NCBI GenBank assembly: GCA_946699065.1
Contig: CAMPDV010000448.1
Span: forward strand, 212,168 to 276,167
Direction of reading: 5' to 3'
From: Loxodes magnus
Lineage: Eukaryota > Ciliophora > Karyorelictea > Loxodida > Loxodidae
DNA length: 64,000 nucleotides
Below the pieces are notes generated by a model, which had not been told where the DNA came from, ran no database searches, and was given only the letters and a program-made list of their open reading frames with translations. Below, in pieces: positions 20,761 through 54,694 of this stretch (positions are counted from its first letter, which is position 1; every line of letters starts with the position of its first letter). The position numbers and the translations under genes were made by a program.

Positions 20761-21269
20761 TTTTTTTCATTTTTAAAAATATTGATTTAAACTAAAAATT
20801 AATTATAATAGATTTATGTATAAATAAACACCTTTTCTTGCTAAATATCCATTTAAAGATTTAATTATATAATTAGATTAGTCTAGCTTTAACATACACT
20901 ACTATTTTATAATAATACTTATTTTTATCATTAATAACTTCTCAAAATGGTATATAATCCTAGAATTTAATTTTAAACTATATCTGAAAAAATCAAATAT
21001 TTATAAGGAAATATTTAACTAAATATGTACCAGTTAGAGAATAGGAAATTTAATTTGGAAAAAATAAAGAATTTATATGGTCTTTCTAGAATTAAACTGT
21101 ACTATTTTTTACTATTTTCATTATTTCTTATATATCTTTTTATTATACCCTTAAGCAAAATTCTAACAAAGGTTTATATATCTCCCACTCAAAATTATTT
21201 TGACTATCTTAATTAAAATTAGATATATACACTCATAAAAGCTTTTAATTGTATTTTCAACTTGGCGAG

Positions 21270-27775: not shown

Positions 27776-30700
27776 TCAATCTCTAGCGTTCATATTTCTA
27801 TCTTACTTTTCCTCTTCTTCTAAATAAAAATTCTAACTTAACTCACCTAAATCATTTAAGTCATTATATATGAATTCAGACACACGAATTTCTGATTTCA
27901 TATTTGAAGAATATTCTTAATTAATATTGTCAAATTCCCAAGCAATCTTTTTATGCTATAAAGCTCATTAATTACGTTTATTTTAAATTTTCTTTTTAAG
28001 ACTTGAAAGTTATAATTGTATTTCTTCCCTATTATATATTTACGATTGCTCCTCAGATTTCTATATAAGAGTAGATTAAGAATTTCTTAACTCATTTTTT
28101 GTCTCATTTTATTAGCTTTCTATAATCATTTACTCATCTTACTCATGACTTACATTACATTAATTTATTTATAAAGGTCAAATTTATATTTTAGCGGTTT
28201 AAAAAGGATTATATAAGATTTAATTATCCAGATAGTTACTTTTAGAGAAACTCTTAAATATTCTGTACTTTTAAATGAATTATTTAACTCTTCTTTTTCA
28301 GTATTTTTGCTAAGTTTATCTAAAGTTCATATTTATCTAATAGTAAAGTTCTCTCAAACTACTGTCTAATAAAAGTAATCATTCCATTTCCTTTAGACAT
28401 CTTACTATCTCATTTTATTGAAATGAATTATATAACTTTTTAGTGTATTTATTATCTTAGTCTAAGTCATAGTAATCATTTTGCTCTTAGTATCTATTTC
28501 TTAATTTTCTATTTATTAATGCTATATTCCTTTTTTCTATTTTCTCTTATCTTTTCTTCTCTTCCTTATCTCATTTAGTTACTATATCATTTAATTATAC
28601 TTTGTTTTTAAAACAGGTTAAGTAGAAATATCATTTGAGTGAATCAAACTAAATATCTTAACCAAACTCTATTATAATCTAGCGAAGCCATTTTAATATA
28701 AAGTAAGCATTTAAGGTAACTAGAAGCAAGAATATTATAACATCAATAATTGGATATTTCTAACCAGATTCAAAATAAATGCCACAGTATAAGATAAATG
28801 TTGAAATAAGCAGGTAATTTAGTTCTAAGCTATTTAGTTCCTTTTTATCAAAAGGTTTATACTTTATCTGAAGCATAATACATACTATCAAGACTAAAAT
28901 TAAGCACCAAAACTAAAATATTATAGAAGAGTTTTATAAGAAAATGAATATCAAGGAGATCATAAACTTCTCATACATCTTAACGAACTCTCAGTAGTAA
29001 AATTCTTCTTTATATCCTAGAGTTAAAAAACCAAACATGGATTTCATAAAGACTGATTTAATAGTGCTTCTATTTCTGTATAAATATATGACTACAACGG
29101 AAGGAATAAGAACTCCATATATTAAAAATCCCGGAAAGGCAAAACAAAGAATGAATTGAAGATGTTTTCCCTTTCAACATTCAATGTCTGTATATGCATT
29201 CAGAACATAATAACCATTTGATATTTCCATACAGCTAAATGCACTAAAAACCGTAAGTATTAAATTAGTGTTTAACTAAAAATATGTGACACTCATTATA
29301 GTTATAAATACTGACTTATTAAATAATTTCCTAGCTAATAACGAATAAATCAGTAGAAGGAGGACACAAGCTATTAAAATGATTAGAGGTAATGCTAATG
29401 TGTTTATTACTTTGTCATAATATCTTCTTTCCCCTTCATAGTAAGCGCAATCTAATTTAAAAATAGTAGAGGTAGTAGCTATAATTTATCCATTAACTTA
29501 AAACAATTCTTTTATTGCATCTGGCCAGTTGAATTTAAAGTTTTAAATTAATACTGAAAATTGCATATAGTTGGTAAGTAATTTGAAGTAAACTCCTAGA
29601 TAAGATTCTTTCTCATAAGCTGATTTTAGTGTATATCAAACTAGATATAAAATATACACTATTAATATAGCAAATATGAAAGCAGCTATTATTAAACTCT
29701 ATTTTTTACTTAAACATTTTTAACATTTATTATTTCCATCTTTTGTTCAATCTTACTCACAAATATCACATAGTATTCCTTTATGTCCTTTTGCACAGTT
29801 GCCTGATCATTAAATATCTTGATAATATTCTAATCTTTATGCTTATTCTGTAATTTTTAAGTATTCTTCTACTTTAAATTTGTTTAATTAAGTTCCCAAG
29901 CAAGATAATTAATTAGGACATTTGAGCATACTTTCTGAAATTAAGTTTTCTCTTCAATATCCTTTAGTAGGCATTATTAGATCACTTCCATAGCATCTAG
30001 CTCCCTCCACACATTCTTTGCAAGATTTATCGCTTTAACCTAAGGAATATTATCCCTATAAGCAATTTTAGCATCATATTCCATCAACTAAGATCTAGCC
30101 ACGTAAGCAACCTGAGATGTTCATATTTACTTCAATTATATTTTAAGAACTTTAACTCGCAAACACATTTCCATCTTCAATTGCTTCAGTTTTTAAGTTT
30201 AGTTTGATTGAACTTCCTGGTTTAGCTTTAACAGTAATGTTTGCTATATAAAAAACTCCAGATTCTGCTTATATTCTTGTTTTACCTGCAAGTTCTGCAT
30301 TATCTTTATTCTCATTTTAAGGATAGACAGAAACAATGGAACTGTTATCAGTTTTTACTATTTATCCAAAATTATCTGTAATGAATATAGTTTATTCAGG
30401 GATTTAGAAACCTGGTAGTTAACTTTTTAACTCTCTTTCTCTTCACGAATCATTCCCATTACAATAACCTAAAGCATCTTAAACTGAGATAGTTGCTAAC
30501 TTAAAAGCAAAGGATGCAAAATTATTACCATAATAAGCAGAATTATTTTAATATAAGGAGCATGATTAAATATCCTATAAATCAGGAATAAAAGTAGGAA
30601 TGGCTCCTTATAAAGAAATAGCACCTCCTTCTCCATATTAATTAGTTATTTTATTACCTATGAACTAATTGAAATCAAGAGTGTAATAACAACTTCATTA

Positions 30701-33700
30701 CTTTTCACAAATCAGCCTTAAAGCCCCACCTTTAGAGAGAGATTCCTTTCCTTGAACTTAATTATCTTGAAACAAGTTGTTTTAAAATGTAATATTAGCA
30801 TTCTAAACATATCCTACTCCTCCATGCTAGGATGCCTTACAGTTTTCAAACTTGTTGTTCTTAAATAAATAATAGTTCTCTTAAGATTTATCATTAATGA
30901 TAACAAAGCAAGAACCAATATTTGCTTTCTGCATCGAGCATCTACAATTCTACATGTTCAACTAGGAATTTAAAGAGTAAATTGCACTTCCATAATATTT
31001 ATCACTTTCACCATATATGAATTAAGTGTTACTCAAATTAATATTTCCGTTATCATTGAATATAGCTGTTTTTATGTAACTACTAAGAAGACAGTATTCC
31101 ATAATCATTTAAGATTATTCTTTCATGTAAATAATAGTTCCATAATCAGTAGAATTTATGTTTTCAAATTTAACATTTTTTATAGTTAAGTTAGATTAAA
31201 GAACATTTATAAGTCCCTAATTAGAGCTAATATCTGAAAATGTAGATTCAGTTAAGGTTAAATTTGATTTAGTTAAATGAAATGCGCCTCCTTTATCTCC
31301 ACTAGCATTATAAAATTAGGAGTTACTTATTGTTATCTAAGCTTAAAAATCGCTCATAATAAACGTTCCTGTTTGACCTTTTTGATTCTTAAAAGTTGAC
31401 TTGTCAATATTAACTATTGAGTTTCATATCATAAGTCCAGAGGTTTATTCCTTAACTTAATTTTGATAGAATTAAACGTTCTAGAGCTTTAGTTAGCTTT
31501 TATAAATGAAAATAATAGAGTTTTATCCTTAGTTATTACTAAGAATAGTGCTACATATCTAAGATACTTTTTCATTTTAAGATATTCATAAACCAATAAT
31601 GCCCATTGAAAGAGCTGTATTATTGTATATAATTGATTAGTCTAAATTAAAGGATGAGCTTTGAACATTTAAGAAAGCACTTTCTTTTGCTAAGTTATAA
31701 ATAAACTGAGAGTTTTATGCCTTAAAGTTACTTCCTAGCATGAGATATCCTACACCTCCACTACTCATTGCATAATTAAGAGTGCAAAGCACATAATTGA
31801 AGTATAAATAAGTTTATTGGATATAGAAAACTGCTCCATATTTTGCTGTATTATTACCAAATCTTGATTTATATATTTAAATACTTGAATTAAAGGCACC
31901 TAGCAAGCCTCCAGCTTATGCTCTGTTTTAATAACAATTGATTGCATAAATTTTAGCATTTACTTACTAGAGAGAAAGTTAAGTTGCTTAATCTGCTGAA
32001 TTATTAAAAATGTTGCTGTTGATAATAAAGATGAAATCTTAAGCTGCTTCTATCAAACTTCCAATATTTTTCTAGAATATGCAATCAATTATTAAATAGA
32101 TCGATTATTCTGACTTTATGGCTACTCCTTTATATCCTATATTCTCTTCAAATCTTATTTACCAAAACAGAGATTTAGAGTACTTTTAAGAAATAGTGAA
32201 GCCTTTTCCAATTTGATTTTAGATAATAGAGCAATTTAGTAAAGAAAAGTTAAAGTTAAAGACTTCTATTAAAGCTCCATCACTAATAAGGTTTTATTTA
32301 AAGCTAGTTTTTATTATTATTACTTAAACATTCTTAGTTTCTATTACTCCGTAACTTGCTACATTTTAATAAAAGTCACTTTCTTCAATAATTAGTTAGT
32401 TAAGAGTAGGAGAGTATAGCAAGGAATAAGCTTCATTATACTAAAAATTGCATTTTTTCAAATACAATATTGAAGAACTACTTGATTCTACAGAATTTCC
32501 ACCTTTAGAAGTATTGTTTTAGAATGAAAAATCCTTAAAAATTGCTTCTGTTTGCATAAAAGTCATTATTGAACCTTAAGTTGCCAGATTCTTAAGTACT
32601 TAAGTTTATGTTAAAGTTAGATAAGATTATAGTAAATACATAACTGCTGCATTTGTAGCATTATTTCTCGTTATTTCAGTTGAAGTTATTTAAATGCTAG
32701 AATTTTAAGCGAATATAAATCCACCATAGGTTGAAGCTAAATTTTCAGTTATATGACTGTTTTGAATTTAAACATCTGATTGTTCTAAATATAGACAAGC
32801 TCCATACTATGCTTTATTCTTCCTAGCTGTTAAAGCTTATATAATCAGGTTACTTTTTTCTGAGTAAATGATTCCACCATAGATTGTAGCTTCGTTTTCA
32901 AGACTTTTAATATTTTTCATTTATACGGTAGATTGATAACTGTAAATAAAAGCTCCTTTTGATGCATTATTGTTATTAACTTATATATTAAAGAGTTCAG
33001 CTCTAAGTAGATTAAAGAATATTATTCCGTTTTAGGATGCATTATTTTGCTTCAAATAAATGTCCTGTAATGTTAGAAATATTTGTGAAAAATATCCAAC
33101 ACTTCCTTAATTCGCGTAATTTAACTCAAATCCACAATTACCTATAAGAGAATTTTATGTATCATTAACTTGGATGAAAAACACTCCTCCTTTTAGAAAA
33201 GCTGAATTTTCAGAAAAGTAACTATCTTCTAATCGAGTAAAACTAGATTACTACAAACATGAAAACCCTCCATTCTCTTTCTTAGCTTCATTTTTAGAAG
33301 CTGAGCAATTATTTATTTCTACTACTTATGATTATAATAAGAACAAAGCTCCACCACTAAATATTTAAGCTATATTTCCAATAAATTAGCAATTTTATAA
33401 AATTCTAATGTTAGTTAGGAAAGTACTTAAAACTCCTCCATACTTTGAAGCTTTATTATTAATAAACATTGTATTTTAGATTTTATCAACTTACGAATTT
33501 TCCAAGTAAGCGCTTCCACCTGAATCTAAAGCTAAGTTTTAACTAAATATATTAGAAAAAATTGTTCCAATTTAACTGTCATATAGGGAGAAAACTCCTC
33601 CTTTTTAAAAAGCTTAATTCAACTTAAATAAATTATCTTCAATTATCTTTATTTCTGATTGCTGAGCAAAGCAAAAACCTCCATTTTACATAGCTGTGTT

Positions 33701-35845
33701 ATTAATTGAAGTTATAATTTTAACCTTTTCCACATATGATTTATGCAGGAATAAAGCTCCACCTGACTAAGCTGTAGCATTATTATCCTAAAACACATTG
33801 TTATTTATTGAAGTAACTGTAGTTTAACTAGCATATATAGCTCCCCCACTAGAGGCTTTATTACGACTAAATCAATTATTTTCTATTTAATCTATTTGAC
33901 TCTTAAGTATATAAATACTTCCTCCTTGATTTAAAGCTTCATTACTTTCAAAAGTATTATTAGAAATAATTTTAATTTAGCTATTTTCAAACGTCAATAC
34001 TCCTCCAGTCAAAGAATGTTGATTCTCATAAAAATTAGAATCTTAGAGATAAGTTAATTGAGATTGACCAAAGTACATAAAACCACCACTTCCTTAAATA
34101 GCAACATTTAAATTAGCAATGATATTGGAAATCAAAATTATATTCGAATTATAAAAATGTAAAGCTCCACCATTTGAGAAACTTGCTACATTTTCTTTAA
34201 ATAAACAGTTAGAAATTTTAGAAATGCTACTGCTCTCAGATATGAGGACTCCTCCTGATTCAATCATTTGATTTTATGTAAATGAACTATTTATAATTTA
34301 GTCAACAGAATCTTCTTGAAAGTAAATACTACCATATACTGCTTTATTATTCTAGACTTTAATATTTTCAATAGAGGTTATTTTACTCTTAATGAAGATA
34401 CAAGTACTTCCATTAAAAACTGCTTAATTTTAAAAAAATATAGATTCCTATAAATAAGCTATTTAGGATTGTAAGAAATACAAAAATCCTCCATTGTCAT
34501 ATGCAATATTTTTAGAAGTTTAGATATCTTTAATTGAAGTTATATTCGATTTCTCAACGTACAAAGCTCCTCCTAGGAATCCTTAATTGGATATAAAAGA
34601 GCAATTCTGAAATTATTAAATACTACATTATAAAATATAAATAGCTCCTCCCTTAAAAACTGCTTAATTTTCTATAAATGAGTTATTTTTAAAAATCCTC
34701 AAGATTGAATTGCTTATATATATACTCCCACCATGCTCACTAGCGATATTTAATTCATATAAGGAATTCTAAATTTTAATATTTTGGCTTTAAAGAATAT
34801 ACAAAACACCTCCATTAACAGCATCATTTGATTTAAATATGCATCCTTCTATGCTTAACTAGGAGTACTAAGAGTTGATAATTCCATTTCCATTTAAATT
34901 TATATTTTCAGAAAATAAGCTTTTATATATCTCTCAAAACGATTCAGATAAAAATATTATAGAAGTAATATTAACTTAATTGCCAGAAAATATAGTATTT
35001 TGTATTTTTAAAGAGGATTTTCTTAAGTATAACTAATGTCCCTATCCTTGATTGTGTGCAAAGAAGGAGTTATTAACAGTTACATTGCTCTAAAAGATAT
35101 AGATAAGTCCTTCTCTATTTTCCTGAAAGTAGCAATTATTTATACTAATGTTTGATTAAGTAAAGTTAAAGAAATTTCCTTACTAGTAAGCAATATTCTT
35201 TTTTATGATTACATTGTTTAAAGTTAAATTTGAGTTTTAAATAGAGATATACTAAGCAACTAAAAATTCAATTTATTAAATAGATGTGTTTATTATTGCT
35301 AAATTTGAGTCTTTTGCTATTATAAAAGCTTTTTAATTCTAAAATTAGCATTGTTAAATAATACAATAGGTATTATCACCCTAAATTGTTATGTTCTATA
35401 GTTCTACTGTATCATTCTAAAGATTAATATAAACATAAGGATCTAAAATAATAATTTTAGAAATTGAACTATTTAAGCACATTGTTTTAACGTAATTTTA
35501 ATATTCGCAGTTATATGATTATATTTTGAAAGACTTTGGACCAGTTCAAGATTAGTTTTATCTTAATAATTCGCATTCTTTATTATACAAAAAATATTCT
35601 AAGCAAGCTATTAAATGTTCATGAGGGGAAATTATTAATTTAACTTGATCATAAAATGACAGTTATTCAAATGCTCTTGTTAAATTAGTATACGGAAAAT
35701 CAATGGTGCCTTCTTCTTGCTAATCGTTATCTTTTTAAATATTTTCAGGTGATGTAACGAATCTTACAATTTCATCACATTTTGAAAAAGAAAGAAGAAG
35801 GTATAAAATAGTTGCGAGGAGATAAGTTGTTGGAATCATCCACAT
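27776..35845 (-). CDS. giant beta-helix surface protein with multipass membrane domain
   Basis: ATG 35845 to TGA 27776 is 8070 bp, exactly 2690 codons, and reads continuously with TAA/TAG=Gln and TGA=Trp. Signal peptide (MWMIPTTYLLATIL) at residues 1-22. Residues about 110-1720 hold dozens of ~25-30 residue repeats ending in NGGA/GGAIY with FxxN-type asparagines, the pattern of right-handed beta-helix and chlamydial-Pmp-like repeats. A Cys-rich EGF/GCC-like part follows, with GYWREN near residue 1964 and GILCDICEQDW. Then come about eight to nine membrane helices (2060-2400) and a charged cytosolic tail with coiled coil. Some 15 Trp are TGA and about six TGG. No intron is apparent. Ciliates carry families of such surface proteins; adhesion or antigen-like function is inference. 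Whether the final TGA or a later codon terminates is unproven. Confidence 0.85.
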
Positions 35846-36309
35846 TTTTAATTATAATTATTAAGAAAAAAAAGTTTAAATAGTAATAGTTTATCTTGAT
35901 TAAACGATTTTAATTTAATTAAACGATTTTAATTTAAATTAAAAACAATTAGTACTTGTCTTTTACTTTATTTTTTATCATTCATTGTTTCTAGATTTCT
36001 ATCTTATTATACAATTTCTTCTTCACTTTATTTTCTTTATGTTTTCTTAAATTACGGAAGATTTTATCTTTATTTAAAGGAAATTAAGTCCTTAAGCTGT
36101 AATCTCTTCAAATATATTTTATTATCTTTCTAAAATTTATTTGGAAAAAGTAGTGTCATCATATTTTTTTATAAGGTAAATTATTTTTATACCTAAACAT
36201 TAATAATGTAGATCTTAACTATCTTGATAAAGCTTTAAGAACTCTTTATTTGTAGATAGTTCCTTTTAATTTTTTTTATTATTCCCTTAGAAAAACGAAA
36301 TACTAAATA

Positions 36310-36640
36310 CCTTTAACATAATCAAAGCTTAATTGATATTAAATTTCTTCTTATATAGTAAACTTATACTTGTAAAGTCTTCTCTTCTTCTCTTGCTTCC
36401 TCTATAATAATTTACTTTCCTTCTTCAATTATCCTCTTATTTGCTTGATTTGCTTTTAATTCTGGTTTGTTTATTGTTAATTTAACTTCTCCATCAAGCA
36501 TCTCTAATTTTCTTGTATGTAGTTTTTTCTTTTTTGCTGCTTCTTCCTTAACTCTATAAATTAGATTTCTATAGCTTTTTTTCTTTATTTCCTTTAATTA
36601 AGCTAGATAAAGGAATTTTAATTCTAAATAACTTAAAATG
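36310..36640 (-). CDS. candidate coiled-coil protein segment
   Basis: The minus-strand frame upstream of the giant gene reads a charged, helical stretch (YRNLIYRVKEEAAKKKK, then KPELKANQANKRIIEE and EEAREEEKTLQ). It uses mainly non-TAA/TAG codons. After about 36310 two frames compete and the signal fades. It could be the end of a larger gene or a fragment. No family recognised. Confidence 0.35.
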
Positions 36641-38799
36641 CCTTTTTAAAGGTTAGAAGAATTTAAAGATAATTCCTTAAAAGAATTTGAGGTTAAAGAA
36701 ATAAATACTACCAACTCTTGAGATTATTTTTCCTTACAAATACTAAAAGGCTTTAGATATATACCAGCAGCTATTCATTATAAAAATATTTCCTAAATTA
36801 AATAAATTTAAAAGTATTCCTTTAAGAGATATCACTTATCTATAAATCAATAATTCAAACCAAGCCTCAATTATCAATGCTATCTATATTTAAATGAATT
36901 TTGGCTTAAAGCCAATCTCAATTTAATTTTTTAAAAGGCTTTTGTTAAAAATTAGATAAATAGTTATTTAGCTTTTGCTACTAAGCAAGTTTAAATAATT
37001 ATGCTAAGGAATATACATTCAAATAAATAATTAAATAGAGTATTAATTAAATATATTTGCTAGATTTATCTTCTACTCATTTTTATTAAATTATACAACT
37101 AAAAATAATTTTAAACCTTCTAATGTTTTCATTTAACTTTAGAGAAATATTAATAGTTAGGAATATAATTTATTATATAGCCTAAATCAGAGTCTTTTAG
37201 CTTTAAATTTAACTAATAAACTTAATAATTATTTTACTTTTAAACTTTCTTAAATGCCAAATTAAAAAATTAAGGAAATATTTTTCTAAAAATATTCCAA
37301 GGGAAGTTAGTTTTGATGTTAGTAGCTAAAAGTTAAAATCATTAATGTAATAAGAAAGGCCTATTTACGATTCTGTCTAACTTATTTTTATCTGTCCAAT
37401 TTAAAATTTTCTTAAAAATAGAGGAAAATAATCAGTTAAAAGAGAAAGGAAATCTGAATAGCTTTGAAACTTATAAGCTTTGAATTTCCATTTCAACTTT
37501 CAGCTTATAAAGATTACTTTTACTTCTTGCAAGATTAATTATAAAATGCTTATTCTACTAAAAGAGACATAGCTGTATGTTTTTCAAGAACTTAAGAAAT
37601 TGCAAAATATTAAATTTTTTATGATATTGCTCTTGAAGATAATTTGCTGATTAAAGTATACCTTCTGTTGCTTTTAAATTGCTAAAATTCTATAGCAAAG
37701 CCTCAAGTCATGAGGATATAATTACAAATTATATTTATCTTTCTTTATATCTAGTTTTTGGTAAAAAAAGGAATTTGCTAGTTAAACTCATCTATGTATT
37801 GATTATTAGGAAAACAGATTAAGATTATTACTAAGAAAAAGCAGTTCTTCATAAACTAAATAATATGAGCATTTCAAGTCTTAAAATATAACTAATAAAT
37901 AAAAACCACTTCATTCTTAACTATATCAACCTTCACTAAAATGTTTTAGATTTTAATGGTTCAAATATAAAATTAATCCTTCAATAAGTCTCTATAAATT
38001 AACTAAATTATTATGAAATAGTTGCTTTAGCGTTACGGATACAAACAATATTAATTAGATTAAGGTAAGAATAACGGGGTAGAGTATAGAAAGTTTAAAA
38101 AGTATAATAACTATTAAAGAATTTAAAATTATAAAGATGTAGCTAATATAATAACTTAGAGAAATTAATTTAAACTGTAAGTCAAATAGCTAGCTTACAG
38201 TTACTATTATTTAGAATATTTACATTCTAAAATCATTTCTTTATAAACCTCTTGCTGTTATTAATAATGTTAAAGGAGACTTAAATAAAAACATTGATAA
38301 TTTATCTCTTAAGATATAAGAAGTGAGTTAGTTAATAAATTAATTATTTTTATTTTAGCAAGTTTATATGAATTATTAATAGATTATAGTTTCTATTTAT
38401 AAAAACTTCTAAGAAATTAAAAAGTTTTAAGTTAAAAGGAAAAATATAAAATAAACCTAGAGGCTCTTTTAATCAGTCATTAATTTAGTTAGTAAAGATC
38501 CTATTAACTGGTTTTGTCGATTACTAAAAATTGTCAGATAAACTAGAAATCTCTTACTAAGCCTTGGACTTAAATTTTTTAAAAAGAAATTTAAATACCA
38601 TCTAGAGATTTTTATAATTGTTATGATTATAATTTTTTAGTCATTTTTACTCTTTAATTTTATCAATAAATATTCACCAAAAAAGGTATTTTTTCCTTTG
38701 GACTTTCGCTTTTTTTAAGCATATCAAAATTTTAACTATTTTAAATAAATTCTGTTTATACAGCTCTCGATAGCAATATTTTATAAATAAATAAATAAA
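36641..38799. other. AT-rich stretch, no gene recognised
   Basis: Nothing that I can support on either strand. Confidence 0.5.
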
Positions 38800-39390
38800 T
38801 TTGATTGTAGAGCGCGTAGCACTCTTCTTGGTGAGCAGCTCTTAAAAAAAAATGTTTCATACTGACAAGAATGTTTCTTACTGATAAAATTATCAGATAC
38901 TGGTAGACCTTGTTCAATACTGGTATAATTATTCAGTACTGATAAAAATGTTCAATACTGGTATAATTATTCAGTACTGATAAAAATGTTCAATACTGGT
39001 ATAATTATTCAGTACTGATAAAAATGTTCAATACTGATATAATTTTATAATACTTGTAATCTTTAATACTTGTTGGAGGTCCAAGGATATGGCAGGATTG
39101 TGTCTCATTGCATCACCAAAGCAGAGGACGACATGTGTCAATTATGGGTACTTAAATTCCCCACCTCTGATGAAGTTCGCAATATTATTTCTTTTTCGTT
39201 CCAGAATTAAAAATAAACTAAGCCAGTGTCGAAGGTCTAAGAATCTTATGTCTCGAGGCCAAACCAAAGCAGAGGAAGACATAAAGTCGATTATGGGTAC
39301 TTAACTTCCCCAACCTCTGATGAAGATGACCTTATTGTTCACCTTCAAACAACTATGGCGGTTTTAAAAAAATATTATAATAATAGTAGC
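38800..39390 (+). repeat. R3 repeat, right copy (possible terminal inverted repeat)
   Basis: Inverted copy of 7326-7830. The 19-bp array is longer here. Three perfect copies of a 38-bp dimer occupy 38913-38950, 38951-38988 and 38989-39026, flanked by more divergent units. The outer 290 bp (39075-39365) again hold two ~150-bp subunits, each with the CCAAAGCAGAGGA and CCTCTGATGAAG words. Homology continues outward through a T/A run to about 39390. Several frames across the core are open, but differences between the two copies hit all frames alike, so I do not call a protein. Confidence 0.75.
38913..39045 (+). repeat. 19-bp tandem repeat array
   Basis: Alternating 19-bp units TTCAATACTGGTATAATTA and TTCAGTACTGATAAAAATG, three identical dimers plus a partial fourth. 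The perfect identity of the dimers suggests recent expansion by slippage or unequal exchange. The left R3 copy has only diverged single units. Confidence 0.85.
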
Positions 39391-39828
39391 ATTTTTATTA
39401 TTTTTATTAAATAAATTTTTTATATAAATTCATAAAAAGATAAATGCAAGCCATCTTCTGTAGGCTATTATTAATTATCTATCCTTTTTACATTATAGAT
39501 TTTATCTATATAATCACAAGTTATTTTATATATATCTAAGCATTATAAATTGGATTATAAAATAATTTATAGCTATTAAATTAGTGCTTCTTACAATAAG
39601 TTCTAATTTACTAAAATCTAAATCTGCTTTTTTTTATTTTCTACCTTAAATTACGTAAGTTTCCGTTTCTTTAAAATAGAATTCTAAAAAAGCTTAAATT
39701 TAATTATTATTTATTGTATAGAGATTAAGTTACTCAGATTATAATTTTAATTTGTAAAGGATTCAGATTCTTTAAATAAAACATATAGCTTTAAGATTTT
39801 TAGTATTCCAAGTGTTTTCTTTATTATC

Positions 39829-40194
39829 TAGCTTTTTGCAATTTAATTTAATTTCAACTAAAAAAGTTTTTGGACCGGAAACTCCTTTCCGATTGCACGA
39901 CCCGACGCTCTCTTTTTATGGAATAACGGGGATATCCTGTTGTGCTCTATGCACAGGTGCTAGGGAGCTCCATCACTATGAGCAGCCAGGCTTCAAGCCC
40001 CTACCAAGAGCGGATAATCTCAAAGACAGGGTTCCCTTCAGAAAATGACTCTGACCAGGGACTTTCTCAGCGACAGGAAAGGAACTTGTTCCTAGTCCAT
40101 AAAACCAGAAAGTGTTGTCACGAAGGTCATTCTCAGCTCCCACCATCTATTCAATTATAGCTTTTTGCAATTTAGATTGCCTTTAATTTCGAAT
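39829..40194. mobile_element. GC-rich 300-bp insertion between direct repeats
   Basis: A 17-bp direct repeat TAGCTTTTTGCAATTTA lies at 39829-39845 and 40158-40174, and similarity continues for about 20 bp more with a 6-bp gap. Between them, about 39857-40157, is DNA near 50% G+C in a genome near 22%. It can form several hairpins (for example CGGAAA/TTTCCG near 39879 and AGGAAC/GTTCCT near 40088). An 11-bp word at 39990-40000, GCTTCAAGCCC, fits the RNA polymerase III B-box with one mismatch. Two plus-strand frames are open, but neither is recognisable. Candidates: a SINE or retroposed structural RNA, or captured foreign DNA. Confidence 0.55.
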
Positions 40195-43100: not shown

Positions 43101-43689
43101 TAATTTAAGAGAATTAAAAGTATAACTTTATTAGATTGAGCAGATTATATTTTTCAACTAAAGTGCTAAAATAAAAAATAAGCAGCTTTACTAATAAAAG
43201 GGTAAGTCATAAGTGTAGATAAGACATTTAAGAATAATAATTAAATAGAGCTAACCATCATAATAAATTTTATAGCTTAATTGAATTTACTACGAGCTAA
43301 GCTTTAATATATTGATTCAATGTTTCAAAAGACTAATAAAATAGCCTATTTTTAAAATGAAAAAGAAATCATAATAAAGAAAATAAATAAATTTTCTTAT
43401 AAAGATGATATATAATTATTCTTGATCACTTTTGGAATAAATTTATAGCAAAGTTGAAAAAGCATTGATTTAAATTGCCTAAATAAAGATAAAACCTCTA
43501 ATTTGATATTATATTAGTTTAAATGGAAAACTTCAATTTTAAATTAAATTTTTGTATGATAGTTCTCAGTTATTTGCCCTTAATTATATCAATTTATAAG
43601 AATTAAGGAATTTCAAGTTGGAAATTAAAAATGTAATAATAAAATTTAAGATTTAATAGGAAACATCTCAAAATTACTATAACATGATA
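40195..43689. other. AT-rich stretch, no gene recognised
   Basis: Long AT-rich region with no motif. A perfect AT palindrome of TTTAAATT type lies near 42050-42080. Confidence 0.5.
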
Positions 43690-44530
43690 GTCTTCAGAAA
43701 GAGAAAAGAATGAAAATGCTTGGAGTAAAAAAGATATTGGAAATAAAAAAGTTGATAAAATAATTAAAATATTTGTTCTTTAGATAGTCAATTAAGTAGT
43801 TTTTGAAAATAATTTAGAGTAACCAAGATAAAATTTGTAATCTCGAAGGAGTATAAAAATATTCTACTAATAGAATGAAATTTAAAATTCGTTGAAAATA
43901 TTATTATCTAATTTGCAAGAGAATAAATTTAAAGCAAACTATGCTTATTTTACTAAGCTTCATATTCAGAAAAAATTAAAATATACTTGAAAAGAACTGG
44001 GATTTTACCTTTCAAAAGAGAGAAGAGAGATAAGTTAAAAATTTCGTCTTATAAAGTAATTGGAATTAAAATTATTTAGAGCCAAAATCTAACGAAAAAT
44101 ACAATAAAATAATCAAATTTATTTGCATAAAAACATATAAAAATTGTTGTATATTATAAAAAAATCAAAAATAGCAATGCTAGAAAATTAAAAAATAAAG
44201 AAATTTTCAATGAAGAATTTGAAAGAAAAAATTTATTAGGAATTATAAGCCTAAATTGGAAATGAGATAAAAATAATTTAATCGCAAGATATAGTTGGTA
44301 AATAAAACTCTAAAATAACGAAAGAAGATTTATCTATAGAAATAAACAAAAAAATTAAAAAAGTCTAACTGAAAGCATATAATTTCCATTAGATATAGAT
44401 CAATTTTTATTTCGTACAAAACATTGAAATAAAAATATAAAAATTCAAGAAAAAAGGCCCTATATCAGATGAAATAGAAATAATTCAATCAAAAATAGAA
44501 ATAAATTATACAATCAATAAATTTATTCTA
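43690..44530 (+). CDS. hypothetical lysine-rich helical protein
   Basis: One plus-strand frame holds for about 280 codons. It opens ERERKNE-like with NAWSKKDIGNKKVDK, continues through LHIQKKLKYTWKELGF (one Trp as TGA) and KEDLSIEINKKIKKV, and ends near GPISDEIEIIQSK. It is highly charged and helical, with a likely coiled coil in the middle. The start is not fixed. No family recognised, and no counterpart elsewhere in the window was seen. Confidence 0.4.
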
Positions 44531-46299
44531 AATCTTATTCAATTTTTTCATAAATTTAAATTTATCTCTTGATATAAACTGTTTTATTATAATATCAGTC
44601 ATATTTTTTAAAAAGTAAAAGCTAGTTGTAAGAAATAAATTCAAAGATTGTGAGGCTAATGTTTCAAATATATAAATCCTGAAAGAAAAACGAAAATCGT
44701 AAAAGTTCAAAATAAAATAAATAAAAAAAGAAAATAACTTTTACAAAAGTGATTGAATCAATGAAAGAAGAAGTTAATATGTTAAAAATATAATATTATA
44801 AGAAATTTCTTATAAAAGAAAAATAAAAATAATAAATGCGAATAAAAAAGAATATTAAGAATTAATATCTTTCAACAATTTAAAAAATATCTATTTGATT
44901 TAATTATTTAAATTAGCCTCACTAAAATTATCTGAATTTTTTATTTTTAAAACATAAAATATGTTTATGCTTTTAAATATTAATTATTAATAGCAAAATT
45001 TAAATTATCTTTCCATGTAAAACTTGAAGTTTTGTATATAAAATTTTAAAATTAAGCAAATTTGTACTAATTTGTTTTATAATTCTTAAAAGTTTGACAT
45101 AATTTAATTATTTTATGTCTTAAATTTATTAAAATATATCTAGGAACATTAAAGTTTTAGTTATTTATTTTAATAAAAGTTTTATTATATTGATAATCTT
45201 TTATAATTTATACAAATATTAAATTTATTAATCAAATTTCTCTATAGGAAATTCATTGGGAAGCGCTAGAAACACTAAAATAACAATGTGCAAAAATTGA
45301 AAAATGTTTACAATTTTTTTCAATTTAGTATATAAAAAAGCATATGTCAGAAATATATAATTAAAAAGGAATGAAATAAAAGAGTTCTTTCACAAGATAT
45401 TAATATAAAATAATATAATAAAAATAAAACTAAGAATATATAATTTATTGAAATTGATATAAGATAAATAAATAAAAGTGTTATTTGTATAATTATATTC
45501 CCCTCTACTCTAAAAAAAATTCAAAAGAGGATAAAAGACGCAGATAGGAAATCTGAAATTAAACTAAAAGTAAGAAAATCTCGCTGAAGATGTATAAATT
45601 TTAGTTTGTACCTATAATTTAGTACGAAAAGATAGTAACTAATGAGAAAAGCTCTTACATCAGTTAAAATAGAAAATAAGTTGTCCAAAAATTGAAGTAA
45701 ATTAATAATCCTAAATAGATTTAATACTTTTATTATTTAAAAAGTAAGAGCTATTCATAATAGAGTTGTTTTGAATTTTAGCAAGTTAAATTTGTAAATT
45801 ATATGTAAAGAAGATTCATTGAAAATGAAAAGCATTATATTAATAAATATCCTTATATAAAATGAGTGAATTTCTTTTATAGAAATAGTTAATCATTAGC
45901 AAAAGAAGCAAGCAATAAATTTTAAATTTTAAATGAGCAGCAATCTCTTAAGCCTCAAATATTGATAGTAAATATTTGATAAAAAAGATAATTAAAATAG
46001 AATATTTTTCAAGGATTATTATACTCTGATATATGCTTCATTTATAGTTTAAATTTATCTTTATTATTTAAATTTTTAAATCAGTAAGCCAAACTTAAAT
46101 AGCAAGTAGTAATTAAATCTTTCTTTGCTATTGTTTAATTTAAACATTTTATTAAGCCTACAAAACTTTAAATTTATTTAGTCTAATTTGTTTTATAATT
46201 TTTTAAAACTGATTATAATTTAATTTTTGTAAATTTCAAACTAATTAACTCTAAAAGGGCTATTTTTATTAGTTACCTTTAGCAAATAAAGTATTATTC
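44531..46299. other. AT-rich stretch with weak coding signal
   Basis: From about 45520 to 46030 one plus-strand frame looks moderately protein-like. It could be a decayed part of the beta-helix family whose C-terminus follows at 46.3-46.6 kb, but I could not align it. The rest shows nothing. Confidence 0.3.
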
Positions 46300-46640
46300 T
46301 AAGATGAGGCAGCAAATGATAATAATCCTAGTTATTTAAACAAAATCTTATAAAAAATCTGAAATTCATAAGTAAATTTAAATAAAGAACAGATATACCA
46401 TTAATTCTCTCTTCTTAAAAATAAATCTCAAATAATCTGATTTACCAAGCTGTCTAGCTTAAAAAAAACCAAGCGAAATTTTAAATGGTAGCTAAGAATA
46501 TTAGTAAAGCACAAATTTAGAGTTTATTATGGCTGATTTTATATTTAATGAATCAAATGAACTAAAGGAGTCAACTCAGAACTTCTATTTAGAAAAAGAA
46601 AATAAATAATTAGAAACAACTATTATAGAAATTGAATTTA
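46300..46640 (+). pseudogene. C-terminal fragment of the beta-helix surface protein family
   Basis: From QEY (near 46494) the plus strand reads a 39-residue stretch that aligns without gaps to the tail of the giant gene: ADFIFNESNELKES against SEFIYNDLNDLGEL, then TQNFYLEKENKQ against SQNFYLEEEEKQ. Upstream, in another frame, NLNKEQIYHQFSLLK recalls IYNREEIQLQLSSLK of the giant protein. The spacing is right and the frame is broken. No membrane helices of this copy were found. It is a truncated, decaying third family member. Confidence 0.55.
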
Positions 46641-49055
46641 ATAAGCTAAGCTAACTTAAATTAATACTTAAAAAAATATTGTTTCTAGCGTAAATTAATA
46701 AATACAATAATTGCTTAATTAAAAAAATTTAGTGGCTTAATTTTCATAAAATATATAATTAAATCTTTTAATATTCTTATTATATTTAAATTTAATTTAC
46801 TAATTTGTATGTATTTATTTAATTATTATTAGTATTTTAAATTTTTCTTTGGTATATTTTAATTATTTATTTAAGATTATATTCCTTTTTTATTTATATT
46901 AATATATATCTCTAATTCCTTTAAAAAATTGGAGGAGTTATATTATTTTGCAAATGCAATAATCAGAATTAAATGAGAAGAAATTAAGTTAAAAGACTTA
47001 AAAATATCTTATATTAGAGTATGAAAATTTATATATCTAATTAAAGAATACTCATATTTAAGGAAATAAAGTATTAACATTATTATATTATTACTTTTAT
47101 AAGTATGATTACTTCTTTACTTATAATTGATTCAGCAATAGATATATGCCCTAACTGGAGATTAGGAAATTTATAGTAAAAAATAGTTTTTTTGCTTGAG
47201 TTTTTTAAATATATAGATGGCCTTGGTATTTGTGCTTTTTTAAGTAGAAAAATAGTTTATATATATCAATTATATACATTTCATATATAAAGAATGAAAT
47301 ATCATCATTATGCAAAATTTTACTTAGTCTTTGAGTAAAATAGCTTGAGAAAGTTGATTATTATACTAGCATTTTAGATTTATTAGATGTTTAGGCTAAT
47401 ATATATTAAATTAATTTAGATTTAAATATCTTTTATAGCAATTAAATATTTCTTAAACCTAAATTGCATAGCAAATCTTTTATATTAAACTTTCTTTCAC
47501 TAAAAAGTTTTACAAATTTATATTTTATTTTTCCAGTTTGCTTTATTTTTATAGGTAGTATGCATAAAACAATGCCTTTATCTTTATTCTATTAGAATAA
47601 TAGAGATACAGTACATTATTACACATTATTACCTAAGTTTTAATCTTATTAACTTTTTTGGCTTTTTAAAACTTTACAATATCAAATTAGAGATAATAAG
47701 AGACAGCATTTCAATGAGAACATAATATAAAAATAAAGTTATAAAAATAATTTTTATAACTCTGATTGATTTAATATAGATATATCAGAAATATGCTTTT
47801 AGTTTTATTATCAGTTTTTAAATACCTAGTTTAAGTCATAAATTTTGAGATTTTATCATACCAGCAATTTTAAATAGTTAGTATTTATTAAGAAAAAATC
47901 TAAAATACAAAACATTTTTAGTTAGAGTAAATAATAATAAGCAAAATTAGAATTTATCAAACTAGAACTTTAACTTATATCCTTATTAATAAGATATAAT
48001 ATATTTATCAATGAAGGATTTTATATATTATATCCTACTATTCTTATTTTAATTATGAAATATAAACTATTAAATTTGAATTTTTGAAACTGTTTAAATT
48101 GTAAAATATTATTAAGTAGGTTATATATAAAATAAAAGCTTATTATAGAAAATTTCTTAAGGTGAATATTTAAAAAAATAAACTAATGCAAAGCATCTGG
48201 AAACTAAACGCAAAACTATGAATAAATATTTTAATTTTAAAATCTGAAGAAATAATAGCACTTTACTATCTTTAAGACTTAGTTAGCATAGGAATAATGA
48301 TAGGCAAATATAAAAATATAGATGGATAGTTTAATACATTCAATTATTCCATTAATTAACCAAAATCTATTCTGATCGTCTTAAATAGATAAAGACAAAT
48401 TTTTATATTAAATTCTTGCATGTGATATATAATAAGATAAAAATTACAACTTTCATAATCATCAGAGAGTTAAACATTACAAAAATTTTAGGAAAATAAA
48501 CCATTAAAAGCATTAATATTTTCTATGTTGATTATAAAATGAAGTAATATCTTAATACTTGAATAAAAAGAGATAAATCTATTTAAATTTGAAATTAAAT
48601 AATGAAAAGTCTTATAAACTTTGAGTAAATATATTATTAAACTTTAATAATATAATATATGTAATATATATATAATTTAAAATCTTTTTCAAAAAGATAT
48701 TCTTTTTAATTTATAATTACCTTATTCTTATATCTCATTGCATAAACCAATATAAACAACTTCTCTTTTGCTAAAATTCTAAGAAATTTTAACTACATGT
48801 TAATAAAGAATTTATTATAAATCAGTTTTGAGTCTAATAGTAATAAGTTAATATAATGTGATATACTTAATCATATGATTATTATATAATGTTGATCATA
48901 TTTATTTAAGAGTCTAGAATTTTTATAATGCTTTATAGAGTATCAGTATGTTTAGAATAAGTTAAGATACTAATATCTAATATATTAGCAATATATAATG
49001 ATAAAAGGATAAAGGATAAAATTAAGTTTATAGTCTTAGAAAAGAGCTCCAGGGT
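46641..49055. other. AT-rich stretch, no gene recognised
   Basis: Among the most AT-rich parts of the window. No motif, repeat match or RNA gene seen. Confidence 0.5.
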
Positions 49056-49859
49056 TCACTTGTTTTTGCTCTTGCTCTTTCCTGAACTAAAGGACTGCGG
49101 GACTACATTAGTCCGCCATCCTTGTCTCTCCCTCATCCACTAATTATCGTTATAGTTTCATCTTCCATTTTTATAAAACTCGTTGTTTCTTGAGTTGTAG
49201 AATTTCTTTCTGTATACTTATCCTGTTCTTGTTGGTCATATTCTGAAAAGTTAGTCTAATATTTATTACTTGTTAATTTTTTCAATTTCTTGTTTCTTCC
49301 AGCATTTTTTCCAGCAATTATTTTTCTAGCATAAATAGCACTGAATCTTTTTGCGATAATAATTGATCTTATTTATTTCTTATTATTAGAATTCCGATTC
49401 GATTTCTATTGGGATATTTGATTATTAATCTTATTAATCTTATAATTTTTAAATTATTACTTGTTATTATTCTTGTTTTTCTTAAAGTTGCTTTATTTGA
49501 TATTCAATTTAAGAAAAATGAAATTGGAACATTTGAGGGACTTCGTTAAATTATTTATCAATTTATTCCAATTTAATTACTATTTACGATTAGATTTTAT
49601 TTAATGATTCATCTATGGATGGGAATTATAGGTTTAATTATTCCATTAATTTTTCTAGTAAGTTTTCTAAATTTTCTATTTTTTATCTTTGCTTTTTCAA
49701 GTCATATTGGATATTTGATATCCTTTGCTGAACTGATTATGCAAAGGATTCCTTAGATTATTAATCTTTATCTTATTAAGGCTATTCTTCAATTAAATTA
49801 GGTTATTCTTATTTTTTCAAGTATTCGTTAATAGAGGTCTATTATTTCTTAGGTGCCAT
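49056..49859 (-). CDS. ORF1/Gag-like coiled-coil zinc-knuckle protein, intact
   Basis: ATG 49859 to TGA 49056 gives 804 bp, 267 residues, in a single frame. N-terminus MAPKKQQTSINEYLKK, then a Gln/Glu-rich coiled coil (residues about 45-150) and a knuckle-like CYLCQKNNCWKKC (CX2CX4CX3C instead of CX2CX4HX4C). A basic, aromatic C-terminal part follows with QVYRKKFYNS, matching the GxIYRKK motif of the other three copies, and GRWNYNDNQWMRERQGW. Gln are mostly TAA/TAG, and one Trp in the tail is TGA. The 3' part is GC-richer than its flanks. No reverse transcriptase lies downstream. It is the best-preserved member of the stand-alone ORF1 family here. The first non-Trp-like TGA was taken as stop. 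Confidence 0.65.
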
Positions 49860-50501
49860 TTTATCTTATATTAAATATATTAGAAATGCATAATTTAAAT
49901 ATTTGTATTATTTGAACTTAATAGTTATAATCATAAAATTAATAACTAACATCCTTAGTTTCAAGATTTATTTTTATATCTATTATTAAATAGTGATGCA
50001 TATGTTGATTCTTAAACATTTTTTGTAATGTAAATTAAACTTTGTAAATTATTTAGAAAATAATAAACATTTGGAATAGAAAAATAATTAACTAATTAAA
50101 AGTAATAAGCTATATTATTTAGCTATTTATTATTTCAGCGCTTTAACTAAATAAAATTTTATACATTTGTATTTAGATCTATTTATTGCATTTTTTAAAC
50201 AGATTGAAGCAATTTATTATTAAAGATATTCTAATCATTAGTTTTTATATGCATTTCTAAATAAAAAATTATCGTTGAAAATTTTACCCCAATCCAGTAA
50301 AATAAATTTTAGAGATTAGAGCTGTAAAGAAAGACAAATTAATAAATTAAAATTATTGTCTAGATGTTTTATCTAACTTAAATAAGGAAAAGGTATTTCC
50401 TTCTTTTTATAAGTTAATTTAGAATAATTTTAGTTCATGAATTTAGTACAAATATTCTTAAATAAAATTAACCTATTTTTAATATAAAAATAGCATCTAA
50501 A
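49860..50501. other. AT-rich stretch, no gene recognised
   Basis: Separates the divergent ORF1-like gene and the truncated surface-protein paralogue. Nothing specific seen. Confidence 0.5.
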
Positions 50502-53500
50502 ATGGGCTATATGTTCATAGAAAATTATGACTTCTTTAATAATACAGCAACTTAAGGGACTTTGTTTAGCTTCTAGGAAGTAAAGGCTGAAATTTATTCC
50601 ATTCGTAGCTTTAAAAATAAAGCATAATCTGCCGGAATGATAAAAGCAACTGATTCAAATATTTCAATTTACGATTCCGTATTTTATAACAACTAAGCAA
50701 AATTTGGAACAGTATTCTATATACAGCAAACTTAGTTATACTTCTATTGAGTATTTTGCTCTAACAACTAAGCTTTAGATAATGGAGGAGTCGGCTATCT
50801 TACGTTAGAAAGTGAGTTCAAAGGATAAAATTCAGATTTTACGAATAACTGTGCAAATGAAGGAGTCTTTTTGTATATATAAAATTCGAACTTTACTTTA
50901 GACGAATCTCTTGTTTACAATAATACAGCTCTTTCAATGGGTGTAATTAGCTTATGAACTTCATAAAAGGATAAATGGAATCAGATAAGTAACTCTTAAA
51001 TTAATGGAAATATAGGGTAAAATTCTATAGTATTTATTTACAAAAGCAAAATAAGGATAAATAATCTATAATTCGATTATAATTAAGCCTTAGAGTAACT
51101 TCAGGATTTTTGCTTTGGAACTCCTCAGTTCTTGTCGACAATTCAACTTTTTAAAACTAAAAAAGCTAGTCAGGAGTGTTCATTATGAGTGATTTTTAAG
51201 CTCAAATATAAATAAAAAGTTCTTATTTCTACAATGCTTTTGGGAAACTAGAAAGTGCTTTTCACTTAACCAAGTCAACTCTTATCTTAGATTACTCCAT
51301 ATTTAAATAAATGAATGCTTAATAAGGAATAATTTATGCGATTTAATCAAACTTAAATATATTAAATGTGCTGTTTAGTGATAGTAATTCAACTGACTAA
51401 GGATCAAATATTTACATGAAAGGATCAAGAATGCTTATGGAAAATTGCGTACTCAGTAATTATGATAGTACAGCCGTATCTGCTGAAAACAGTACTATAA
51501 ATTTGAGCAACACTTAGTTTATTTATGGCTAAAGTAAAATCAACAACGGATGTGCTATTTACTCTTTCAATTCCTAAGTTAATATGTAGAGTTGTAGATG
51601 CTAGATGTAAAAGTCAAATATTGGGTCTTGCTTTGCAATCTTTAATGACTAAATGTAAGAAAACTACTTTTTTGAAAACAATTTGTTTGAAAATTGTAGA
51701 GCCACTCAGCATGGAGGAGTTGGATTCGTTTAGAATGCTAACATCACATTCCTTAACAACTTATTTTAAGATAATATAATTCAAGGAGATTAAAAAATAT
51801 CTAAAGGTGGAGCTCTTAGACTTATTTGTGAAAAGTAGCATTTATGCAATTACACCCTTGAAAATAACTAATTCTTTAGTAATTAAATACTCAATAAATT
51901 TGGAGAAGGAGGGGATGTTTCTTTATAAGGAGTAATACCTAAATTTATTCCAGAGTTAGACAGTGATCAATCTTGCCTGCTGTTCTAAAATAATTCAGCG
52001 TTCTATGGTGACAACCTAGCATCCTCTGCTTTTAAGCTTACAAAAAATCCAGTTTAAAAAGCTTTGATTCATTGTATTAAAAATAATTCTTAACATAGCT
52101 AGATGATTAACTTCCTGGATTTTCAATTCCTGATTATTCTGTTTTTATAGCAGATATTTTTGGACAAGTCGTTAAAACGGATAATAATTCTATTGTTTCT
52201 TTTTACTCAGATAGTGATGATGCAGAATTATCTGGTAAAAAAAGAATATCAGCTTAATCTTGAGTTATAATTATTTAAGACATTGTAGTAAAAGCTAAGC
52301 CTGAAATTTCAGTGCAATTGGATCTGGAAACTGATGCAGTTGAAAAGATTATTATCTTTGGAAGGGAAAATACTTAAGGTAAAGTTGAAATAAAAATAAA
52401 CATCTCTAACTGTTTACGTGGCTAGATCTTAGTCAATGGGGATTGATGCCAAAATTGTTTCTATGGCCAATATTCCTTAAATACAAGCGAAAGAACCTGT
52501 AAAAGATGTATGGAAGGAGCTAGGTGTTACGGTAGTGATTTAATAGTACCTATTAAAGGATACTGAAGGGAAAATTATATTTCGACAACTATACTCAAAT
52601 GTCCTAACCAATTTTCTAGTTTAGGATCGGACTTAAGTAATGATGATGCTCAAGCGTACATTCAAACTACAAATTATTCAAAAAGAGAAGAGTTTTATAA
52701 GAGAAATAATTTAGCTGGAAGGTGTGAAGGGGGATACACAGGGATTTTATGTGATGTTTGTGAGTAAAATTGAACAAAGGATGGACTTAACTAGTGTCAA
52801 AAATGAATGAATTAAAATAAAAGTATAATAATAGCTATGTTCATTCTTACCGTTTTTGTAGCGTATATTATCTACCTAGTTAGATATAATTTAAAATCAG
52901 CCAATAAGCAAGACACATATTTCGGTGTTTACTTCAAAATACTAACAAACTACATGTAATTTTCGGTTCTGATTCAAAACTTCAAATTCAATTGGCCAGA
53001 TGCAATAAAGCAATTATTTTAAGTAAATGGATAGTTTATAGCCACTACTTCTACTATCTTTAAATTTGATTGCATTCATTATGAAGGTGAAAGAAGATAC
53101 TACGACAAGGTCATAAATACATTAATTTTGCCTCTAATAATTTTAATTATTTGCGTTCTCCTTCTATTGGTTTATTCCTTAGCAAACAGGAAACTATCGA
53201 GCAAAATTGTATTTATAACCATGATAAGTATTACTTTCTTTTAGAAAAATACTAATTTAATACTTACAGTTTTTAGTGCTTTCAGCTGTTTATAAATTTC
53301 TGAAGGATTTTACGTTTTGAACGCATACACAAACATTGAGTGCTGATAGGGATAACATCATAAGTTCACTCTAAGCATTGCCCTTCCTGGTCTTTTGATC
53401 TATGGATTTCTGATGCCCTGTGCTATAGTTTTATATCTATACAAGAATAGAAAAATAATTTAGTCCGTTTTGATTAGATCCTAATTGGGGTTCTTAACTC

Positions 53501-54694
53501 TAGGGTATTAATAAAATTTCTATTACTGAGAATTCGTCAAGATGTACGAGAAATTCGAATATCCTTGATATTCATTTTCCTATAAAACGTTACTATAATT
53601 TTCTAGTTTTGATGCTTGATTCTAGTACTAATAGTATGCATTATGCTGTAGCTGAAGTGCAGGCCTTTTGTAAAAGAGGAATTAAATAAATTAGAATTGA
53701 ACTATCTACTAATATCAATATTCATCTTATACTGTGGCATTTACTTTGAATCTAATCAGCATTATCCAATAATAGACGTTATAATATTTCTAATTCTAGT
53801 TGTTCTAAATATGAACTTCATCCTAAACTGGCTTCGCTTGGTAGTAATAGAATATGGATCTGAGATTCAATTTGATTCACTTAAATAATACTTCTACTTA
53901 ACATGCTTTAAAAATAAAGTGTAATTAAACTAGATAGTCACAAAGTGAGAAAAGCAAGAGAAGCTTTAAAAGACAGCGGCTAGTAAAAAAATAAAGCTTA
54001 AATAAACAGCTAGACTGAGTAGATTTAATACTATGATATAGACTAAGAAAACAAAATTACTAAAAGATTAGATTGTCATTAAGCAGAAAGAAATGCTTTA
54101 ATGCTTGAAGCAAGTAGAATGATTATTTTTGTTAGATAGCAGCTTGATAGAGCTCTATAACTAAATAAGTTTGAATTTTAGAAGAACATAACAAGAGTAT
54201 TGAAAATAGAGAGTTAAATAATTCCTATGTAAATACTAAAATTAGAAAAACCTCTATCAATAAGCCCAAAGATACAAAGAGATTTAGCCAAGTCCTTTGT
54301 AAAATATTAATAATTAATAATTAACTGAAGCCACTTAAATATAGGATACTAGTCATAAGTTTACTAAATAACAGTATGTAGAAAATTTATAAATTGAGAT
54401 AACAAATGAAGCAAGAGAATCTTAAGAAAACCCATAAAAGTCTCAATTTCAAATTTATAATAAGGAGGAAATACAAATTTAACTAGCTAGCCTTAAAAAG
54501 AAAATTCAAGGAAATAAGATTAATTTTCAAAAAAGGCAGGAGAAGTAGAAAAACCCACTTAGGAAAACTGATTATTTTCGAGAAAAGAAAGCTGAATATC
54601 AGAGTTTTAGTATAACGAGTTTAGTGACTTTAACGAAAGAAGTTAATCTTTCTCTGGAGTAGACTAAGATAACTTAGGTAACTATAAATAATGA
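50502..54694 (+). pseudogene. 5'-truncated, frameshifted paralogue of the giant surface protein
   Basis: Aligns along its whole length with the C-terminal half of the gene at 27776-35845, from about residue 1340 on (FYIQQTQLYF, DNGGVGYL, YNNTALSMG). It keeps the last beta-helix repeats, the Cys-rich part with GDWCQNC, GYWREN and CDVCEQNW, the multipass region and the acidic tail. Signal peptide and most repeats are missing. Four single-base frameshifts show against the paralogue, near 51117, 52105, 53560 and 54530. About 14 Trp are TGA, many at the same positions as in the paralogue. The first ATG of the readable part is 50502, and TGA at 54692-54694 ends it, preceded directly by TAA. It may be a pseudogene, a silent donor cassette, or an assembly with indel errors. 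Confidence 0.75.

Follow-up and report, generated by a model that had tools for sequence, protein, structure and literature searches.

Sense and stop readings of TGA in a giant gene of Loxodes magnus: the karyorelict code recovered from raw sequence, with a proposed decoding mechanism

Introduction

How is a gene read when its frame is filled with all three standard stop codons? The question is raised by a giant gene on the minus strand of a 64,000-nucleotide stretch of Loxodes magnus DNA (contig CAMPDV010000448.1, positions 212,168 to 276,167; hereafter the window, C448:212168-276167 in our contig numbering). An initial annotation, made from the letters alone, proposed that TAA and TAG are read as Gln and TGA as Trp, and named the karyorelict code (table 27) as a precedent. 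Table 27 is indeed the published code of Loxodes magnus, stated with UGA as the only stop (PMC11441545). We conclude that the window is almost certainly macronuclear DNA of Loxodes magnus that uses table 27, and we propose a mechanism by which it is decoded. The code itself is already known, and the finding is its correct blind rediscovery from raw sequence. Genome tests were run on the assembly of 705,730,643 bases in 7,843 contigs.

Results

The giant gene is a single frame with stop codons read as sense

The giant gene spans 2,690 codons in one frame, terminal TGA counted, as the initial annotation had it (Table 1). Its 2,689 internal codons include 20 TGA, 146 TAA and 45 TAG, alongside 6 TGG, 38 CAA and 7 CAG. 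Under table 11, no open reading frame of at least 150 residues is listed within the window. If TAA and TAG are translated as Gln but TGA is kept as a stop, the giant frame falls apart into listed pieces of at most 736 residues.

The predicted product is built of right-handed beta-helix repeats (Pfam Beta_helix PF13229, E 9.4e-35, nine stretches), a Cys-rich segment and a cytoplasmic tail. Judged by eye from the translation, it probably begins with a signal peptide, and its C-terminal part looks like membrane segments followed by the tail. A search with residues 1800-2500 returned 17 homologues, the best from Blepharisma stoltei (5.4e-84), and all that carry an organism label come from ciliates (Blepharisma, Stentor, Euplotes and Tetrahymena). 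No relative turned up when viral and prokaryote contigs were searched. A gene-family tree of the 17 homologue rows, the giant gene and one paralogue piece, all kept, left the placement of the window genes open.

The composition of the gene is in line with this reading. Trp makes up 0.97% of the product if TGA is counted as Trp and 0.22% if TGG alone is counted; the homologues range from 0.42 to 1.36%. The share of TGA among TGA and TGG codons is 0.77, within the A bias of nine other purine-ending pairs (A share 0.75-0.94), so that TGA and TGG behave as synonymous codons of an AT-rich gene. The giant gene has a G+C (GC) content of 26.2%, and 30 kinase domains of the same assembly have 33.0%. 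The latter value is close to the 33.5% published for Loxodes coding sequence (PMC11441545), so the giant gene is an AT-rich one within a genome that fits.

TGA stands at conserved tryptophans

Eight columns of the homologue alignment are mostly Trp. The giant gene has TGA at three of these, in the motifs GYWREN, ECWKG and YYWEF, and TGG at two. At all three TGA columns a damaged paralogue on the plus strand, described below, also has TGA. Codon meanings were then read from a homologue profile (16 of 17 sequences, P0016 left out) against a query in which TAA, TAG and TGA had been masked. For TGA, Trp ranked first in the giant gene (4.9 versus -0.5 for Tyr, a margin of 5.4 nats), in the paralogue pieces (6.6 versus -5.3 for the runner-up) and in the two combined (11.5 versus -5.7, a margin of about 17 nats). 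For TAA, the combined copies gave Gln 46.8 and Lys 38.0. Used as a check, the profile recovered 44 of 59 sense codons in the giant gene, 47 of 58 in the paralogue and 52 of 60 in both together.

Table 1. Positions of the features in the window
Feature	Positions	Strand	Evidence
Giant gene, 2689 sense codons + TGA	27776..35845	minus	codon counts, Pfam, homologue search
Last TGA of the giant frame, inferred stop	27776..27778	minus	frame end and GC drop
Giant TGG opposite paralogue TGA (53610-53612)	28907..28909	minus	codon alignment
TGA at invariant Trp (YYWEF)	28991..28993	minus	W in 16/16 homologues; paralogue also TGA
TGA at conserved Trp (ECWKG)	29174..29176	minus	W in 11/16 homologues; paralogue also TGA
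TGA at invariant Trp of GYWREN	29954..29956	minus	W in 16/16 homologues; paralogue also TGA
Giant TGA opposite paralogue TGG (51116-51118)	31424..31426	minus	codon alignment
Damaged paralogue	50481..54694	plus	pieces 50481-51099, 51098-52099, 52102-53556, 53559-54548 and tail
TGA at paralogue gene end	54692-54694	plus	placed by eye
Relic of third copy, C-terminal end only	46352..46609	plus	blastp of six-frame translation, 41.8% over 91 residues, E 3e-5
Transfer RNA for UAG (anticodon CTA), putatively of Gln identity	55154..55225	minus	ARAGORN; Rfam RF00005, 68.5 bits
Frame-broken LINE-like remnant	21202..23400	plus	motifs by eye; unusable as code evidence

TGA also stands at gene ends

The eRF1 gene (locus L010) aligns nearly end to end with human eRF1. 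It contains 13 TAA, 7 TAG and 4 TGG codons and no internal TGA; one of its TAA codons takes the Gln position in the GGQ motif. The gene ends ...DEDFL-TGA, at the point where homology ends. In the giant gene, GC is 0.26 over the final 200 nucleotides of the frame and drops to 0.15 over the following 200. Table 27 genes are expected to be poor in coding TGA over roughly the 20 codons ahead of the stop; the last 62 giant codons hold no TGA, of which we estimate that only about 0.5 would be expected. TGA is found at the expected end in three genes of two families (eRF1, the giant gene and the paralogue, the latter two by eye). On the evidence of sequence, TGA is a codon with two meanings, Trp internally and stop at the gene end.

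It is improbable that the window uses a Condylostoma-type code (table 28), in which TAA and TAG would be stops as well. The paralogue ends ...AAA TAA TGA, which leaves TAA as a candidate stop there, one codon earlier. However, eRF1 and both giant copies show TGA at the expected end, and UGA is the only stop in the published Loxodes code (PMC11441545).

A damaged paralogue shares nine TGA codons

The paralogue is readable only across at least four frame segments separated by small indels, and its N-terminal half was searched for and not found. It is therefore taken as a damaged copy, decay being its latest stage. Over 1,344 aligned codons, TGA occurs 16 times in the giant gene and 13 times in the paralogue. 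Nine of these places are common to both, more than expected by chance (hypergeometric P about 2e-16). The copies differ by a synonymous divergence (dS) of 1.21, with a ratio of nonsynonymous to synonymous divergence (dN/dS) of 0.22, and have swapped TGA and TGG twice, once in each direction. Together, the common TGA, the swaps and the dN/dS of 0.22 at this dS indicate that the two are not a pair of old pseudogenes.

Most of the codon pairs singled out by the initial annotation were recovered. These are the TGA in GYWREN of both copies (29954 and 52564), the TGA pair of GLWIS/SLWTS (31586 and 50955) and the paralogue TGA at 53610 that faces a giant TGG at 28907. The opposite swap, with the paralogue TGG at 51116, also stands, with its giant TGA at 31424-31426; the place first given for that codon, 31434-31436, reads ACT on the minus strand. 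Opposite TAG in one copy, the other has CAR in eight cases, AAR in five and GAR in none; opposite TAA, the corresponding counts are 17, 10 and 10. Because of the CAR exchange between copies, together with eRF1, Gln is preferred over Glu and Lys for TAA and TAG.

Could the TGA codons nevertheless be the product of decay? These would then be decayed genes of a table 6 ciliate, such as Tetrahymena, in which TGA is a dedicated stop and TGG has turned into TGA by G-to-A change. The frameshifts of the paralogue and the TGA at some non-Trp columns speak for it, yet we consider it very improbable. A dN/dS of 0.22 at this divergence, with nine TGA in common, argues against it. So does the distribution of changes: conserved Trp columns hold 3 TGA and 2 TGG, whereas Gly and Cys columns hold 3 G-to-A changes and 99 kept G (Fisher p 0.00096). 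The initial annotation had only asserted that such decay was unlikely; the assertion holds under the Fisher test and becomes firm with the dN/dS.

TGA replaces TGG across gene families

Further evidence against decay came from the genome. The search with the 624-residue C-terminal part of the giant gene gave 71 scored matches, the giant gene included, among 2373 candidates. Each of the 71 holds 4-11 TGA, and 68 form a single frame of at least 616 codons when stop codons are read through. Several matches share contigs (C253, C195, C280 and C13), and three, the giant gene included, are on the contig of the window. Twelve of the matches, picked for diversity, were aligned with the giant gene. In seven columns, every one of the 13 rows has TGA or TGG, with TGA to TGG splits of 11:2, 11:2, 4:9, 6:7, 11:2, 2:11 and 9:4, and 76 of the 95 family TGA fall in columns that are at least 60% TGA or TGG.

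The same pattern is seen in conserved genes. Fifty kinase domains (the best 30 and the next 20 of 136 listed; 12,755 codons) contain 37 TGA (0.29%) and 91 TGG. Three TGG-defined columns take up 28 of the 37 TGA, with 32 TGG and 13 TGA (n=50), 13 and 9 (n=24), and 22 and 6 (n=38). At least one internal TGA occurs in 26 of the 50 domains, where table 6 would lead one to expect none in conserved genes. The kinases and the giant family agree with the reading of TGA as Trp. In the GWKxGW motif of a kynurenine aminotransferase (locus L009), TGA occupies the position of the second W; a further TGA in this stretch faces no W in the alignments shown.

The reading of TAA and TAG as Gln and of internal TGA as Trp, as first proposed, is thus supported by homologue columns, exchange between the paralogues, the family alignment, kinases, the aminotransferase and eRF1. 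A different meaning for TGA, for example the Cys that it has in Euplotes, or selenocysteine, has a negligible probability, since W is the top profile residue in both copies with Cys outside the first five, and since the exchange in kinases and in the giant family is with TGG.

One further claim, that TGA is read as Trp in genes resembling long interspersed nuclear elements (LINEs) and ORF1, was not confirmed inside the window. The LINE-like remnant there is frame-broken. Its six-frame translation matched nothing in Pfam at E up to 0.1, and a homologue search with a single stretch from one frame came back empty at E 0.001. Outside the window, the LINE copies that were read (8 of 150 scored matches) have TGA places in common. 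In the three alignments shown, these places do not face W of the solved R2 and L1 reverse transcriptases, so that the LINE copies support a sense reading of TGA and not Trp as such.

A tandem array of tRNA-Trp and an altered eRF1

The assembly holds at least 40 identical copies of the transfer RNA (tRNA) with anticodon CTA that lies in the window, and 16 of these form a 588-base tandem array (C130:557640-566531). Multi-copy tRNA genes are therefore not special to Trp.

For tRNA-Trp, a first pattern search found three places, of which one was a real tRNA, with an anticodon stem of 5 base pairs (bp). This spoke against a mechanism based on a 4-bp stem until a similarity search found a tandem array of tRNA-Trp(CCA) on contig C148 (about 155434-165068), which accounts for at least 34 of 40 scored matches (131 candidates). 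Thirty-three of its genes lie on one strand at a spacing of 241-242 bases, and one lies on the opposite strand. The anticodon stem is 4 bp, with U26/C42 at its top, in all six array copies read, of 34 listed. Four full repeat units are identical, and a T run follows the tRNA. A 4-bp-stem tRNA-Trp(CCA) has been reported for Loxodes (PMC13092985, PMC12005148).

Compared with human eRF1 (alignment to 1dt9), the Loxodes protein has Ala for Ser70, Ala for Glu55, RAQ for TAS and Phe for Tyr125. In Blastocrithidia, a Ser70Gly eRF1 together with a 4-bp-stem tRNA-Trp(CCA) promotes UGA readthrough (PMC12153298). An eRF1 with Ala at human position 70 and the array of 4-bp-stem tRNA-Trp are probably the decoding machinery here. 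In the mechanism that we propose, UAA and UAG would be read as Gln by suppressor tRNAs, among them the CUA-anticodon tRNA of the window. UGA within genes would be read as Trp and UGA near the end of the messenger RNA as stop, a choice that, from published work, would depend on distance to the poly(A) tail. The tRNA that decodes UGA would most likely be tRNA-Trp(CCA) from the tandem array, its anticodon stem shortened to 4 bp, in competition with an eRF1 weakened for UGA by Ala in place of human Ser70. The charging of the tRNAs and the competition with eRF1 are what we infer from these genes.

TGA use differs between gene classes

The share of TGA among Trp codons is uneven. In the kinases it is 0.29, and AAR, GAR, CAR, TAR, TTR and AGR there have an A share of 0.66-0.84. 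In the 13 giant-family rows it is 0.68, versus 0.71-0.89 for other pairs, and in eight LINE reverse-transcriptase copies it is 0.89, versus 0.62-0.94 for other pairs. The giant gene and the kinases differ at Fisher p 8e-6. Relatedness makes the rows of one family dependent on each other, most strongly so among the LINE copies.

Other features of the window

The relic of a third copy, limited to the C-terminal end, yields no information on the stop. At 38856-39044 there is a 38-base tandem repeat, which overlaps a segment (38989-39371) present a second time, inverted, at 7340-7722 with 95% identity over 383 nucleotides; the segment is a dispersed repeat (locus 7340-7847). By eye, a Cys-rich, coding-like stretch with several frame changes lies at 59400-60900 on the minus strand. 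It could be a second damaged surface-protein gene or a gene with introns.

Discussion

The evidence above points to table 27 from several directions, and a number of observations pull the other way. At three of the eight conserved Trp columns, the giant gene has neither TGA nor TGG, reading TTA, CTA and TAT. Six TGA found only in the giant gene face H, L, R, Q, L and Q in the paralogue and, as these are not Trp, give no support for it. Three found only in the paralogue face Y, G and C in the giant gene, and may belong to the decay of that copy. The profile barely separates Gln (22.4) from Lys (21.8) for TAA in the paralogue alone, and for TAG it comes to a near tie between Glu (11.1) and Gln (10.0). 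As to the mechanism, some copies of tRNA-Trp have a paired stem top: three are on contig C110, and one tRNA-Trp-like copy is on contig C7736. The last has an inner stem mismatch, scores 44 bits in Rfam and is not called by ARAGORN.

The uneven use of TGA suggests a tentative explanation, to which we give somewhat less than an even chance: UGA as Trp may be costly in Loxodes and purged class by class, with the array of 4-bp-stem tRNA-Trp supplying the decoding. In the giant family and in the LINE copies TGA would keep to the local A/G bias, and the giant family likely escapes avoidance on account of lower expression or faster turnover. If the explanation is true, translation of UGA-rich genes should be less efficient or confined to particular conditions. 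With uneven TGA use and the tRNA array, the price that the cell pays for a codon with two meanings becomes directly accessible to study. The contrast between TGA avoidance in kinases and the giant family and LINE copies is possibly new. Neither the array nor the uneven use of TGA was met in a limited search of open-licence papers, a weak negative; Swart's critique may describe the tRNA genes. There is also a practical side, since under the usual ciliate table the surface-protein family would be fragmented or called pseudogenes.

The system is closest to the karyorelicts with table 27, Parduczia sp. and Loxodes magnus itself, in which TAA and TAG are likewise Gln and TGA is both internal Trp and stop (PMC4967479, PMC11441545). 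TGA usage in Parduczia is 0.120% (PMC4967479), compared to 0.74% in the giant gene here (20/2689) and 0.29% in the 50 kinase domains (37/12,755). In Condylostoma magnum (table 28), the three stop codons have the same sense meanings (PMC4967479), and a 4-bp-stem tRNA-Trp(CCA) is reported as well (PMC13092985). All three codons are stops there, however, whereas here TGA was seen at the three gene ends looked at, with TAA a possible stop at one. Plagiopyla frontata is also predicted to read UAR as Gln and UGA as Trp, but it belongs to another ciliate lineage and its sense UGA is rare (PMC10553269). Blastocrithidia shares UGA as Trp through a 4-bp-stem tRNA-Trp(CCA) and an eRF1 altered at Ser70; it differs in that UAR is Glu, UAA is the only stop and the eRF1 change is Ser70Gly, in place of the Ala found here (PMC12153298).

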